A stretch of DNA of 64,000 nucleotides, taken from the NCBI RefSeq assembly GCF_030409055.1, contig NZ_CP116619.1:839628-903627 (forward strand), given 5' to 3'. Source of the DNA: Trichocoleus desertorum NBK24 (GTDB taxonomy: Bacteria; Cyanobacteriota; Cyanobacteriia; FACHB-46). The first letter of the stretch is position 1, and every line of letters begins with the position of its first letter. Positions 30,705-36,466 of this stretch are shown piece after piece. The position numbers and the translations under genes were made by a program. The notes beneath the pieces are model-generated. The model saw only the letters and a list, made by a program, of their open reading frames with translations, was not told the origin of the DNA and did no database searches.

Positions 30705-31331
30705 CTAGCTAGCTTTGTCGATCGCCCGCTGGGTATTACGAGCTGCGTCACTAGCTTTGTCTTGAACGTAGCTAGAAGTCTTGTTTACTGCTTGCTTCGC
30801 GTTGCCGACTAAATCCTGATCCGCGACTTTACTCAGACCTTTGCTAGCACTCTTGGCATCATCACGAATGTTATCTGCTTGGTCTTTCACATTGCTGGTG
30901 ACCCGATCAGCTTTTTTGTCAAAAGATTTGCTGTCTCGCTTGAGGTTGTCACCTAGCTGTTCTAGGTTCTCGCCTTTCTTGTCGAGAATTCGCTTGCTGT
31001 TGGTGCCAATATCATCCGTTTGGTCAATCACATTACGCTCAGCATTATCTACCAAACCTTTGGCCTGAGACGTACTTCTAGATTGCACACCTTTGTTGTA
31101 ACGGGCATCTGTATCACTGTAACCGTTCATGCCACCTTGGTAGTTTTGCTGGCGATGTCCAGGGATACCTTGAGCGGGGCTATTGCTGTCTCGGCCTTGG
31201 GGACCAGTGCTCTCTCTCGCTTGAGCACCACCTGAGCAGGCAGCGGTAGAAATCATCAGAACACCTGCCAAAAATACGGCTAAAATTTGGTTCAAGCGAA
31301 CTTTTTTAAGTGCAGAAAGCAATCTTTTCAT
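30705..31331 (-). CDS. Secreted lipoprotein with amphipathic repeats
   Basis: 208 residues from the ATG at 31331; a longer frame from 31388 would put 19 residues before the signal peptide. The signal peptide is K-R-L-L-S-A-L-K-K-V-R then F-L-A-G-V-L-M-I-S-T-A-A-C, with the lipobox Cys at about 31. The mature part has Gly/Asn-rich sequence, then charged helical heptad-like repeats (D-N-L-K-R-D-S-K, D-N-I-R-D-D-A-K, Q-A-V-N-K-T) resembling apolipoprotein-like or LEA-like helices. Function is unknown. The adjacent gene at 31580-32149 has almost the same signal peptide, so the two arose by duplication. I recall such cyanobacterial proteins labelled DUF6658, unverified. Confidence 0.7.
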   Translation of the reverse strand: MKRLLSALKKVRLNQILAVFLAGVLMISTAACSGGAQARESTGPQGRDSNSPAQGIPGHRQQNYQGGMNGYSDTDARYNKGVQSRSTSQAKGLVDNAERNVIDQTDDIGTNSKRILDKKGENLEQLGDNLKRDSKSFDKKADRVTSNVKDQADNIRDDAKSASKGLSKVADQDLVGNAKQAVNKTSSYVQDKASDAARNTQRAIDKAS

Positions 31332-31579
31332 AGAAGTACTCCGTTGTATTTTCTTGAGTGAGTGGGTATTAAATTTTGAGAACTCCAACTCGCAACTCAG
31401 CTATTTTTTATGGGCGGTCAAGTTTGCTTCTTAACCCACTTTGAGTGTGTTTTTGGCGGAAAAGCATTGTCTCCTTTTAAGGAAAAATTATGTTTTTCCC
31501 AATCAGTTTTTCACTGCTATATTTTGACTGCCTTAGTTGTTGAAGCCTAGTTATTGAAGTTGGAGCCTCAGCGTGAGAA

Positions 31580-32149
31580 CTAGTAGCGTCGCTCTGCGGG
31601 GTTAGGTGCCAATTCTGGTTTTTCTAAAGCAGAATCACCCGTTTCTTTCACAAAAGCAGAAGCGTCTTTGAACTGCTCACCAACTCTTTCGAGGATCTTT
31701 TCGCCCGGATCACTGCGATCGATTACAGGCTGGCGCTCTTTAGGAAACTGTTTCACTTGGGCTTGCAGTTCTTTCTGAGCTCTCGTGCCGATCGCCGGAT
31801 TGTTTGTACCGCTAGCGTTGGCGCTGGGGTAAAGCATGTCCGATGGATTACTTTGAACATCACCGATGCTGTTAGCAGCGATCAACTGAGGAGCAACGAG
31901 TTGCAGATCTGCCCGATTGCCTCGAACTGCCTTGGCATCAGTAGACGCCTTGTAGTTGGTGTAGCCGTCTCCACCGCTCTTGTGTGGGTTGTTGTTACCA
32001 CCCATTTGCACAGGAGGATTGTTAGGACGAGCGCCATTAACATCTCCACTGTTACAAGCAGTACTGATTACCAGTAGCACGCCTGCTAAAAAGACAGTTA
32101 AAATTTGTCGTATTCGCACTTTTTCGAGAAAAGCAATTAAATTCTTCAC
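31580..32149 (-). CDS. Lipoprotein paralogue of the gene at 30705-31331
   Basis: 189 residues. The N-terminus (V-R-I-R-Q-I-L-T-V-F-L-A-G-V-L-L, then S-T-A-C) is the same lipoprotein signal as in the neighbour, with the lipobox Cys at about 32. After the signal the sequence diverges: a Gly/Asn-rich stretch (P-P-V-Q-M-G-G-N-N-N-P-H-K), a middle region without repeats, and a charged C-terminus. It lies upstream of its paralogue on the same strand, 248 bases away, so the pair may be separately transcribed. Function unknown. Confidence 0.65.
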   Translation of the reverse strand: MKNLIAFLEKVRIRQILTVFLAGVLLVISTACNSGDVNGARPNNPPVQMGGNNNPHKSGGDGYTNYKASTDAKAVRGNRADLQLVAPQLIAANSIGDVQSNPSDMLYPSANASGTNNPAIGTRAQKELQAQVKQFPKERQPVIDRSDPGEKILERVGEQFKDASAFVKETGDSALEKPELAPNPAERRY

Positions 32150-32590
32150 AGAAGACTCCTTATTAGCTCAGTGCATAAGGGCCAATGCTTCGTTAAAAGT
32201 GGCCCTCTTCAGAGAAATGACAGCCTAAAGTTCCTACAAGCTGGCGCAGTAGGATAATCGCTAGGAAGCAGGAGTTAGGCTGAAAACTTTTTCACTGATA
32301 CCTGTTCAGCTTACGCAGAGGGTCCGATCGCATCCTCTAGCCGAGGTCACATTCTCAGCATCCGATCTCAGCTATTTTCTCTAACTCCAGAGAGAGCGAT
32401 TCAAGAGCGATCGCCAATGAACAGGCAAATCAGCGTATTGATTGACACATTCAAGACCTGATTCGCTGGGGTGAAGACTCAGCAGCAGCAGGTTTTTATG
32501 CTGTGGTCACTAGGTCACAGCTAGAGATGTTGTGCAAACAGTTTGCGCAAACAGTTGCGCGAACAGACAAACAGATCGGAGTAATTCTGC
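32150..32590. other. 441-bp intergenic region
   Basis: It separates the divergent lipoprotein gene and the disulfide-oxidoreductase gene. At 32530-32575 there are short repeats of a GCGCAAACAG-like unit (three variants) just upstream of the ATG at 32591; they could be a binding site. An AGAAGACTCC stretch before the lipoprotein ATG is a probable ribosome-binding site. No gene was found. Confidence 0.4.
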
Positions 32591-33928
32591 ATGACCTTTG
32601 ACTACGATCTATTCGTCATTGGGGCGGGTTCTGGCGGTTTAGCAGCGGCTGAGCGAGCAACTACGTACGGAGCGCGAGTGGCGATCGCGGAATCAGCCAC
32701 CGTGGGAGGAACCTGCGTCAATCATGGCTGTGTCCCGGAAAGGCTGCTCAACTACGCTGCTAGCTTTGCCGATGTTCTTTCGGATGCGGTGGGATATGGC
32801 TGGAACAGCACACCTAGTCAATTTGATTGGGCAAAGTTTGTGCAGGCCAAAGACCAGCAAATTAAAAAGCTCAATCAAGTTCATCAGCGGCATCTCGACT
32901 CTGGGAAAATAGCAGTCATTCCCGGTCAAGCCGTCTTCACGGATGCTCATACCTTAAAGGTGGGGGAGCAGTCGATTACGGCAGCCAGAATTTTGATTGC
33001 GGTGGGGGCCGAGTGGGAGCACTTACCTATTCCGGGCGCAGAACATTTGATCACCTCCCGTGAGTTGTTTAACTTACCGGAGCTACCTCAACGGCTCGCC
33101 ATCATCGGAGATACTTATATTGCTGTGAAGTCAGCTAGTAGCTTGAATAGCTTAGGTTCACAAGTGGTCCAAGTCGTTCCCCAAGATTCGATCTTGGCAG
33201 ACTGGGATCACGATCTCGCGACAGCAGTGCAGACAGGTTTGGCGCAGCGCGGGGTCAGTTTTCGCTGTCAAAGCCAGTTATTAAAAGTAGAGCGCAGTTC
33301 CACAGGTTTAGAGCTAACTCTCTCCGATCGCCATGAAACCCTAACCGTTGATGCTGTAGTTGCCGCAACTCAACGCCACCCCAAAATTCAAGGCTTGAAC
33401 TTAGAAGCAGCGGGAATCCAGCTCACTCCTCAAGGCGCGATCGCAGTAGACACCTACAGTCGCACGACCCAGCCCAATATCTTTGCGATCGGAGATTGCA
33501 CGCCTAGAACTAGCCTCACACCCGTAGCGATCGCCTCTGGACGAGCGATGGCAGATACTGAGTTTGGGCCACAACCGCACGCAGTCGATTACAACTTAAT
33601 TCCAGTGTCAGTGGGTTTTCAACCAGAGGCAGCAACGGTGGGGTTGAGCGAGGCTCAGGCACGAGCACAATTCGGTGAAGCGGTACAGTGCTACCGAACC
33701 GAGATCCGACCCTTATCGCAGAAATTGATACCCCACCCTAAACCAGGACTGTTGAAACTAGTAGTTGAGGCTCAATCCCAACGAGTGGTGGGAGCACACT
33801 TGATCAGTGAACATGCAACCGAAATCATTCAATGCCTAGCAATTGCCATGCGGATGGGCGTCACGAAATCCCAACTCAGTCAAACCGTCGGTCTACATCC
33901 CTCGATCGCCGAAGAATTGGTTATGTAG
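32591..33928 (+). CDS. Glutathione reductase-like flavoprotein with degenerate NADPH site
   Basis: 445 residues, aligned end to end with cyanobacterial glutathione reductase. Present: FAD-binding G-A-G-S-G-G at 11-16, redox pair Cys42/Cys47 (G-T-C-V-N-H-G-C), the second FAD block (A-I-G-D-C-T) and the C-terminal His436/Glu441 acid-base pair (L-H-P-S-I-A-E-E). Changed: the NADPH Rossmann motif, normally G-G-G-Y-I-G-V-E, reads G-D-T-Y-I-A-V-K at 173-180, and the Arg residues that bind the 2'-phosphate are replaced (I-L-A-D-W-D-H-D-L-A). Thus a flavin and redox disulfide are likely but NADPH use is doubtful. GGAG lies before the ATG. A true gor gene would be expected elsewhere. Confidence 0.85.
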   Translation: MTFDYDLFVIGAGSGGLAAAERATTYGARVAIAESATVGGTCVNHGCVPERLLNYAASFADVLSDAVGYGWNSTPSQFDWAKFVQAKDQQIKKLNQVHQRHLDSGKIAVIPGQAVFTDAHTLKVGEQSITAARILIAVGAEWEHLPIPGAEHLITSRELFNLPELPQRLAIIGDTYIAVKSASSLNSLGSQVVQVVPQDSILADWDHDLATAVQTGLAQRGVSFRCQSQLLKVERSSTGLELTLSDRHETLTVDAVVAATQRHPKIQGLNLEAAGIQLTPQGAIAVDTYSRTTQPNIFAIGDCTPRTSLTPVAIASGRAMADTEFGPQPHAVDYNLIPVSVGFQPEAATVGLSEAQARAQFGEAVQCYRTEIRPLSQKLIPHPKPGLLKLVVEAQSQRVVGAHLISEHATEIIQCLAIAMRMGVTKSQLSQTVGLHPSIAEELVM

Positions 33929-34045
33929 GAACTCCAAGAGCAAGAACTTCAAGAACTTTACAAGAAAGATGAGGGTGACTCGGTAGGGTGGCAGCGATTA
34001 AGATATGGCTGACTACGCCTAAATCACCCAGCCTAAATCGCTTAA

Positions 34046-35002
34046 ATGAAGAGCGATCGCTCCCCCTCACCAAAATCACACATCATGAAGCAAATTGGTG
34101 CCCGCCTCAAGCCTTACCTGCGCTGGGTTGTCCTAGGTGGCACCTTAATTTTCTTGGCCAAAGCGCTGAAGGATCATTGGGCAGATGTGGTTGCCATTCG
34201 CATAGAAGCCACAGGTTGGCTATATCTGGCGATCGCACTCAGTGTGACCTTAATGGCCCATATTTGGTCAGGCTGGGTTTGGGGTTGGATTTTGCGCGAA
34301 CTGAATCAACCAGTCAATGACCTCTGGGCGATCGCAGTTTATCTGCGAACCAATGTTGCCAAGTACCTTCCCGGCAATATCTGGCATTTTTATGGGCGAA
34401 CTCAAGCGGCAACGGCGGCAGGCATTTCCCTGGGTGCAGCAACGTTAAGCGTCTTACTAGAGCCTCTTTTAATGGCGGCGGCGGCTCTACTCATTGCTTT
34501 AGTAGGAAATCGCACTCCTGATTGGGGCTGGCAAATCGTAAGCCTAGGGGTGGTGCTGGCAAGTGTTCATCCTAAAATCCTCAACTTAGGAATTCAATTA
34601 CTCAGCCGCTTAAAGGGTAAAGCCACCAATGCGGCAGCCAATTCCTCTAGTCTCACCATTACTCGCTACCCGCTACGACCGTTATTAGGAGAAATGGTTT
34701 TTGTAGGGATTCGAGGGCTGGGTTTTCTCTTTACCTTTCTCGCCATCAGTCCCCTGACTAGCAGCCAAATTCCTCCACTTTTCAGTGCTTTTGCCTTAGC
34801 TTGGCTATTAGGATTAGTCGTACCAGGGGCACCGGGAGGGATTGGCGTGTTTGAAGCCACGGCGATCGCTTTGCTAAATCAGCAATTTTCTCCAGGATTA
34901 ATCTTGAGTGTGGTCGCTCTCTATCGTCTTATTAGTATCTTGGCTGAATCTATTGGAGCTGGATTTGCCTATTTTCAAAAAACCCAAAAGTCAGGATTGT
35001 AA
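34046..35002 (+). CDS. Flippase-like / lysylphosphatidylglycerol synthase transmembrane-region family protein
   Basis: 318 residues from ATG 34046, or 305 from ATG 34085 (M-K-Q-I-G-A-R-L); neither has a strong ribosome-binding site. About eight hydrophobic helices with the family features L-R-T-N-V-A-K-Y-L-P-G-N-I-W-H-F at about 100-115 and G-A-P-G-G-I-G-V-F-E-A near 270. The family (UPF0104 / YbhN-like) corresponds to the membrane half of MprF-type proteins, thought to flip lipids. No catalytic domain is fused here. The substrate is unknown. Confidence 0.8.
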   Translation: MKSDRSPSPKSHIMKQIGARLKPYLRWVVLGGTLIFLAKALKDHWADVVAIRIEATGWLYLAIALSVTLMAHIWSGWVWGWILRELNQPVNDLWAIAVYLRTNVAKYLPGNIWHFYGRTQAATAAGISLGAATLSVLLEPLLMAAAALLIALVGNRTPDWGWQIVSLGVVLASVHPKILNLGIQLLSRLKGKATNAAANSSSLTITRYPLRPLLGEMVFVGIRGLGFLFTFLAISPLTSSQIPPLFSAFALAWLLGLVVPGAPGGIGVFEATAIALLNQQFSPGLILSVVALYRLISILAESIGAGFAYFQKTQKSGL

Positions 35003-35065
35003 GTCTCCCTTCATCCGTAGAAGAAAACTTAGAAGCAGCCTTAAAGAAGAACTCCCATAGCTATT

Positions 35066-36466
35066 TCAGTTCGTGTCAGGCAACATATCAGGATCGAAGC
35101 CATCAAGCCCAAGTTCAACCTCAGCCATTGAGCCTAAAATGTCATCATTTTTTAGCTGAGAGAATATGACGTAAGTATCTAGATGAGCCGAGGGGCCAGA
35201 GGATTTTTGCTTCACGTTATTCATCTTGATCAAGTTGTATTCCACATTTTCAGCGTAAATAGCAAAGGTAATGTTGAATACTTCCATAAATGTAATGACC
35301 CATTCGCACTCATCTTCCGAAAAGTTTTCGTAGTAGCGAACTAATTCAGCGATACAAGCTTCTAGATGAGTACGAGTATGACTACAAATTAAAACAATTT
35401 TAAGTAAGACAATAACCAAAGTCAGGGGGTTGCCTTGAGATAAAAGCAAGACAAACAAAGGCGATGGTTCTTTTTGGCCTTCAATCGTTAAATATTCTAT
35501 TACACGATTACAAGTTCTGAGTAACAGAGCACTACTCAAAACTTCATCGTGGTAGCTTTCATACAATGATTCAAACTTTTTAGATAGCTTTTTTCGGAGT
35601 GTTTCAACAAATTCTTGATTCTCCAGCGAAAAAGCTAAGTATTCCTGCAAGCTAGCCTTAAATTCCTTGTACGTCAGATGCTGAGTTTGCTTGAGAAAAA
35701 TATTGGCTACGTTAGCATAGTTAAAAGGGCCTCGTCGGGCAACAATGGCCTTGGTCAAGCGCAGCACCTCATCGCCCAATGCAGTCGGATTTCTATGGGT
35801 TTTTCCACCTACATTACCCGATTGGGATCTAGCAATATACATTGCCAAATCAAACTTAAATCGATCTTTTAATTGTTTGGAAAGGGCTCTAGCAGCTTCT
35901 CGTTGCTCAATCGGATTCTTTAAATCAACATATTGAGGAACTAATAGAAATGCAGTGTACCTTTGAGTCCAATGACTTCCCTGATCATCATACCTAGAAG
36001 CAAATAACTTAAGCTCTTCAAAATCCTGACTGTTGACAAAGCTTAAAATCCAACCTCTTAAACGTTTTAAAGTTGGAGAAACTGTGTAACGAGTAATGGA
36101 TGAATCAGAGAAAATTTGAATTAAATCTTGGATTGCTTTGTGATGTCGCTTGGTTCCCCAGTTATTAACCAGAATGTAACAAGAGCGCTTAAGAGTGTTT
36201 CTAAATTCTTCTTCATTATTTGCAAAAACAATTTCATATAAAGCAGGCACGACCGCAGAACTACTAGAATCCGCGTGATGAATAAATAGACGTTTGAATT
36301 CTAAAAGAACATCCTCAGGAGCCCAGGTATTGACAACTTCCAACAAGAAATTGAACAAAACTTCCTGAGCTTGTTGTGTACTACGCTTCGGTTTATGAGA
36401 TTTGTTGGAGGAGTCGGTATGGCGATCGCTTGTCAAAACGTCCCCAATCATTATTACAGAACTCAA
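35066..36466 (-). CDS. Large helical protein of unknown function
   Basis: 466 residues, soluble, mostly helical, no signal peptide. The N-terminal 35 residues are polar and Ser/Lys-rich (D-S-S-N-K-S-H-K-P-K-R-S). The body has long amphipathic helices, including E-E-E-F-R-N-T-L-K-R-S-C and Y-N-L-I-K-M-N-N-V-K, and the C-terminus is very acidic (L-G-L-D-G-F-D-P-D-M-L). The gene is AT-richer than the neighbours and nearly free of HIP1 sites except near its start, so it could be acquired. A full-length ORF with consistent codon use supports a real gene, but I recognise no family. Confidence 0.6.
   Translation of the reverse strand: MSSVIMIGDVLTSDRHTDSSNKSHKPKRSTQQAQEVLFNFLLEVVNTWAPEDVLLEFKRLFIHHADSSSSAVVPALYEIVFANNEEEFRNTLKRSCYILVNNWGTKRHHKAIQDLIQIFSDSSITRYTVSPTLKRLRGWILSFVNSQDFEELKLFASRYDDQGSHWTQRYTAFLLVPQYVDLKNPIEQREAARALSKQLKDRFKFDLAMYIARSQSGNVGGKTHRNPTALGDEVLRLTKAIVARRGPFNYANVANIFLKQTQHLTYKEFKASLQEYLAFSLENQEFVETLRKKLSKKFESLYESYHDEVLSSALLLRTCNRVIEYLTIEGQKEPSPLFVLLLSQGNPLTLVIVLLKIVLICSHTRTHLEACIAELVRYYENFSEDECEWVITFMEVFNITFAIYAENVEYNLIKMNNVKQKSSGPSAHLDTYVIFSQLKNDDILGSMAEVELGLDGFDPDMLPDTN

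Follow-up and report, generated by a model that had tools for sequence, protein, structure and literature searches.

What supplies electrons to a glutathione reductase (GR) paralogue that has kept its redox-active cysteines and lost its NADPH-binding signature? The question is posed by an open reading frame of Trichocoleus desertorum NBK24 at 32591..33928 (+) of the window, the 64,000-nucleotide stretch of DNA analyzed here, which encodes 445 amino acids plus a stop codon and contains no internal stop. A sequence-only reading of the locus had described a full-length GR paralogue with Cys42/Cys47, both FAD motifs and the His436/Glu441 pair, and all are present: the first FAD-binding motif GAGSGG (residues 11–16, 32621..32638), the redox-active pair C42...C47 within CVNHGC (32714..32731), the second FAD motif NIFAIGDC (residues 296–303, 33476..33499) and the H436...E441 dyad of the disulfide side (33896..33913), each on the + strand. 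Its account of an altered nucleotide site was likewise borne out. The second Rossmann motif reads GDTYIAVK (residues 173–180, 33107..33130, +) and, unlike that of GR, lacks GxGxxG/A (GDTYIA instead). The 2'-phosphate arginines are also absent, their aligned residues being P197 and A203 (span 33179..33199, +), which correspond in the alignment to R218 and R224, the 2'-phosphate arginines of the human enzyme.

The paralogue is a full-length GR family protein. It resembles GR (PRK06116.1, TIGR01424; EC 1.8.1.7) in fold, homology, FAD motifs, C42/C47 and H436/E441, has about 36% identity to E. coli GR, and scores above the PRK06116.1 GR equivalog cut-off (499 versus 480 bits) and below the cut-offs of TIGR01424 (497 versus 606 bits) and TIGR01421 (378 versus 556 bits). 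Among proteins of solved structure, it is best matched by GRs of bacteria and by glutathione amide reductase. An AlphaFold model built from a 26-row alignment (mean pLDDT 88, pTM 0.86; residues 435–437 and 442–445 below 50) predicts an intact fold, reaching a TM score of 0.95 when superposed on E. coli GR, and its Rossmann fold is modeled with confidence. Domain searches of the protein revealed no extra domain and no extra metal-binding domain, leaving the earlier proposal of a redox sensor unsupported. An anti-phage role was rejected, with no PADLOC hit, and no Rfam match was found over 31000–36000.

We aligned 132 distinct proteins, mostly cyanobacterial GRs, drawn from own-genome, related-genome, genome-contig, pattern-matched and plasmid sequence searches. 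Re-fetched copies (L116, L118–L120, L125, L127 and L128), short pieces (L056_4345, L115, L122 and both pieces of L133) and seven identical duplicates were dropped before counting. Residue 50 of the query is Glu (GCVPER; 32738..32740, +) and its aligned partner is Lys180 (33128–33130, +; Glu181 of E. coli by alignment). Lys50 of E. coli GR corresponds to human Lys66, which sits next to flavin N5 and pairs with Glu201. E50 occurred in 16 of the 132 proteins, all 16 of which carried K180; the remaining 116 had K50 (114 proteins) or S50 (L003 and L004, distant paralogues in the query's own genome), and E180 in every case. The E50 and K180 combination was thus found in 16/16 swapped proteins versus 0/116 others, and pattern-matched loci had been chosen by E50 alone, K180 forming no part of the choice. 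Since Lys50 has become Glu and its partner Glu has become Lys, the charges of the flavin-side ion pair are exchanged (E50/K180) relative to the Lys50–Glu180 pair (K50/E181-type) of GR. The NADPH signature is therefore lost, as first described, but not plainly so: the Glu-to-Lys change has a matching Lys-to-Glu change at its partner, and on the aligned residues the site reads as rebuilt rather than simply lost. Three things had escaped the sequence-only reading: Lys50-to-Glu, the replacement of G261 and F342, and the fact that the protein belongs to a subfamily, whose 16 members we grouped as A (the query genus, three proteins, chromosomal), B (Symplocastrum and UBA11370, two) and C (11).

Judged from the alignment, the changes in the swapped proteins are one-sided and lie on the donor side. 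The third Rossmann glycine (175) is N, D or T in 16/16 and Gly in 116/116 others, and Phe342 is replaced by S, G or A in 16/16 (G342 in the query, 33614..33616, +) and present in 115/116 others. Gly261, found in 116/116 others, is replaced in 11/16 (Q261 in the query, 33371..33373, +), Tyr176 is Q or H in 11/16, and Leu309 is Trp in 11/16 and Phe in 2/16. Position 197, a 2'-phosphate site, is Arg in 2/16 swapped proteins and Arg or Lys in 107/116 others. Unchanged in all 16 are C42, C47, K/R51, T310, R318, H436, E441 and E442; with the disulfide-handling half thus unaltered, electrons most likely still pass from FAD through C42–C47 to a disulfide. Of the positions that correspond to glutathione-binding side chains, R318 is thus constant among the swapped proteins, and position 21 (human Arg37, a glutathione contact) is Glu in 8/16 of them and Lys or Arg in 114/116 others. 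Glutathione amide reductase of Chromatium gracile (PDB 2r9z, 2rab; 39% identity) shares Glu at position 21 with the paralogue, and the disulfide reduced in nature may accordingly differ from plain GSSG. That enzyme, solved with NAD according to the entry title, keeps CVPKK and GAGYIGIE, unlike the paralogue.

These replacements support well the view that the swapped enzymes probably use little or no NAD(P)H. The strongest competing reading, unlikely in our judgment, is that NAD(P)H is still used, the reciprocal change preserving the salt bridge and yielding a GR whose affinity or preference for the cofactor is altered. The pair is indeed inverted and not lost, the PRK06116.1 cut-off is passed, the Rossmann fold is confidently modeled, the query genus and group B retain Tyr176, and 5/16 proteins retain Gly261. 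Continued NAD(P)H use is harder to reconcile with position 175, a pyrophosphate-binding spot that has lost its Gly throughout and is acidic in 7/16, and with the absence of Arg197 from 14/16 proteins and of F342 from all.

The query has two same-genus orthologues (93% and 87% identity), and 13 further distinct proteins share the swap pattern at about 50–53% identity; such recurrence is more than chance. Among the three query-genus species, dN/dS of the paralogue was 0.09–0.13 (NG86) or 0.14–0.21 (YN00), slightly above that of the usual GR in the same genomes (0.08–0.10 and 0.12–0.16, respectively) yet clearly constrained: the gene is under purifying selection in the genus. Simple decay of the query gene, which the sequence-only reading had doubted, was rejected because the frame is open in all three species and the ratios are low rather than near 1. 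Its suggestion that electrons may come from another donor gains from the same results, orthologues sharing the change under purifying selection; the donor itself we infer below. A second full-length GR was present in 8/8 genomes examined with the swapped gene, and in 8/8 this usual GR reads K50 and E180 (the G053 copy has Ala at position 49). The paralogue and the usual GR encoded in the same genome are 51% identical. Separately, pairs of GR paralogues about 1.6–2.2 kb apart, both K50/E180, were seen in several cyanobacteria, at L047, L050, L052, L054, L063, L076, L093, L103 and L108.

The pattern GGTC..GC[VI]PE was searched in overlapping samples of 388 genomes of the class and 386 of the phylum and found in 9/388 and 2/386, respectively. 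In G146 the swapped gene is a decayed remnant (L135, about 10037–9732, minus strand; GGTCVLRGCIPEKL, then stops), and in G459 it is split in two (L133, 9787–9125 and 6233–5568, minus strand, ~2.9 kb apart). The other seven pattern-positive genomes are G000, G001, G002, G053, G490, G517 and G527; the first residues of the G490 copy lie beyond the contig end. Among the matches listed by tblastn, nine plasmid records carry a close relative (at least 60% identity to the Brasilonema protein). The swap was read directly in seven of the nine, the protein of the eighth (L. boryana IU 594) is identical to that of G517, and the ninth record is that of L. boryana NIES-2135. The swapped gene also occurs in Calothrix PCC 7716, Symplocastrum torsivum and the MAG UBA11370. 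Bacteria outside the cyanobacteria were covered by plasmid tblastn, in which, apart from the nine cyanobacterial records, no record among the matches listed exceeded 45.7% identity to the Brasilonema protein. Within titles and abstract starts, a scope that leaves most subscription journals outside, we found no description of a charge-swapped GR or of the swapped gene in copper islands.

Whether the swap arose once depends on the columns considered. In the full tree the 16 swapped proteins form one clade (99/94), recovered in 100% of 200 bootstrap trees, and a long stem of 0.83 changes per column leads to the query genus. When 17 trait columns were masked, a careful tree no longer grouped the query genus with the remaining 13 proteins, the two being united in 1% of 200 bootstrap trees. 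On the masked data one clade was 1.6 log units lower, a deficit too small for the AU test to reject it (p 0.167), and a tree in which the clade was held together was 6.45 better than a quick masked tree (p 0.657). One origin and two convergent ones are both possible; if the swap arose twice, it would represent a convergent switch.

The genomic setting differs among groups. Synteny in both query-genus relatives includes a LarC-type nickel insertion protein, two DUF6658 proteins, an LPG-synthase-like membrane protein and a gene identified from its sequence as trpA. The adjacent DUF6658 proteins (window 30705–31388 and 31580–32149), kept in both related species, have lipoprotein-like starts. At window 35066–36466 lies a 466-amino-acid protein with no Pfam or PADLOC match and 85–96% identity within the genus. 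Copper-island genes, scored with 18 reference proteins from annotated copper islands, flank 11/11 group-C loci within the flank sequence examined, 0/5 loci of groups A and B, and 0/77 normal-GR control loci (mean length 11.7 kb); as the loci are related and the flanks unequal in length, these figures are counts rather than a clean test. The G053 flank contains only a P-type ATPase and DUF305, at 35–48%. The copper four-helix protein was rejected as a marker by itself, since distant relatives occur in 10/10 genomes examined; those of the query genus (44–47% identity) lie away from the swapped gene. The gene is a conserved, real GR variant, chromosomal in one genus and with copper-resistance genes nearby in 11/16 members.

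Flavodoxin accompanies many of the same loci. It was found in the flank of 7/11 group-C loci versus 1/77 controls, counts subject to the same relatedness and unequal flanks, and all nine gene-bearing plasmid records among the matches listed carry a flavodoxin at least 76% identical to that of Chroococcidiopsis. Sixteen plasmid records carry the copper protein at 60% or more; among them, flavodoxin was present in 8/8 with the swapped gene versus 2/8 without it (Fisher p 0.007); dropping near-duplicates gave 6/6 versus 1/7 (p 0.005). In two Chondrocystis plasmid records without the swapped gene, flavodoxin adjoins the copper protein, so its place in the island may be independent of the swapped gene. 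On the Leptolyngbya sp. NIES-3755 plasmid, the copper-island flavodoxin closest to the swapped gene is annotated short (L126, 12565–12903), its 510-base reading has an in-frame stop, and a second flavodoxin copy is present. A flavodoxin query matches 6 of 10 genomes examined, with two or three matches each, some of them fragments, in G053, G459, G490, G517 and G527. Query-genus genomes G000, G001 and G002 gave no match at E<=1e-6, and flavodoxin as a donor in that genus is accordingly unsupported.

The swapped facing charges and rebuilt NADPH side suggest that electrons come from a different source. The usual enzymes of this class pass electrons from NAD(P)H through FAD to a disulfide without free-radical intermediates (PMC13296446). 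A functional likeness exists to FFTR/DTR (ferredoxin-dependent flavin thioredoxin reductase; Gloeobacter, Prochlorococcus), a cyanobacterial flavin disulfide reductase that lacks the NADPH motif, is unable to use NADPH and is reduced by ferredoxin via a neutral semiquinone (PMC9025218, PMC12796991). The likeness is one of working, not of family-level homology: FFTR is one of the low-molecular-weight thioredoxin reductases, whose CxxC is found in the second domain, and the paralogue lies outside that family. Because of this analogy, we propose that flavodoxin or ferredoxin may feed the swapped enzymes one electron at a time. A second GR-family enzyme, retained in addition to the usual GR of the cell, would have had its NAD(P)H hydride-accepting half rebuilt, with E50/K180 reversed, the third Rossmann Gly and 2'-phosphate Arg gone and several pocket residues replaced. 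It would take electrons singly from a low-potential carrier, flavodoxin in copper-island members and ferredoxin in the query genus. The carboxylate replacing Lys near flavin N5 could favor the neutral semiquinone needed for one-electron transfer, and reduced FAD would then pass electrons through C42–C47 to the disulfide of a putative glutathione-like or small-protein substrate.

A one-electron carrier is a plausible, if tentative, choice of donor. The best reading, also held tentatively, is a specialized GR-like disulfide reductase fed by such a carrier rather than by NAD(P)H. More doubtful is its fullest form, a pyridine-nucleotide-independent GR subfamily, spread on cyanobacterial copper-resistance plasmids and retained on the chromosome of one genus, in which reciprocal charge inversion converted a hydride-accepting GR to a disulfide reductase supplied with single electrons by flavodoxin or ferredoxin. 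Several observations count against the carrier reading. No flavodoxin was found in the query genus, no copper genes lie near group A and B loci, and charge analysis revealed no added basic surface at which an acidic carrier could dock in the swapped proteins, whose mean total charge is -10 to -13 in groups A, B and C versus -12.1 in 42 ordinary GRs and whose FAD domain is more acidic than that of ordinary GRs. Retention of Tyr176 in 5/16 proteins, Gly261 in 5/16 and Arg197 in 2/16 also counts against it.

An intact disulfide side with an altered donor pocket would also fit an enzyme working in reverse, as a thiol oxidase passing electrons from a dithiol or glutathione to oxygen, a quinone or another acceptor. 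The cyanobacterial DDOR (diflavin-linked disulfide oxidoreductase) offers a partial precedent, in that its NADPH site is absent and glutathione may be its electron donor in vitro (PMC9025218); unlike the paralogue, DDOR belongs to the thioredoxin reductase family, with two flavins per subunit. We consider oxidation in this direction improbable, as no oxygen or quinone site was identified and the plasmid flavodoxin link points rather to a reductase. Slightly less probable still is direct copper handling, with the cysteine pair binding copper or shifting its oxidation state in resistant strains. Mercuric reductase is a relative by fold, and copper-island genes distinguish all group-C loci from the normal-GR controls, but they are missing near all five group A and B loci, and the protein has no extra metal-binding domain. 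A partner or regulator forming mixed dimers with the cell's usual GR, which is present in all eight genomes examined, is very improbable: the interface dyad H436/E441 is kept in 16/16, yet so are the cysteine pair and FAD motifs, of which a regulator would have no need.

The carrier-fed reductase remains the preferred reading. In a subfamily that databases call glutathione-disulfide reductase, the Lys/Glu pair of 114/116 compared proteins is inverted as a unit. Should NAD(P)H be used after all, the finding would be that of a GR with a variant cofactor site. Were the enzyme to work without NAD(P)H, the subfamily would be a natural double mutant bearing on hydride versus one-electron flavoenzyme chemistry, and disulfide reduction in these cyanobacteria would have a route that bypasses NADPH, for which the copper-island link supplies a test condition.
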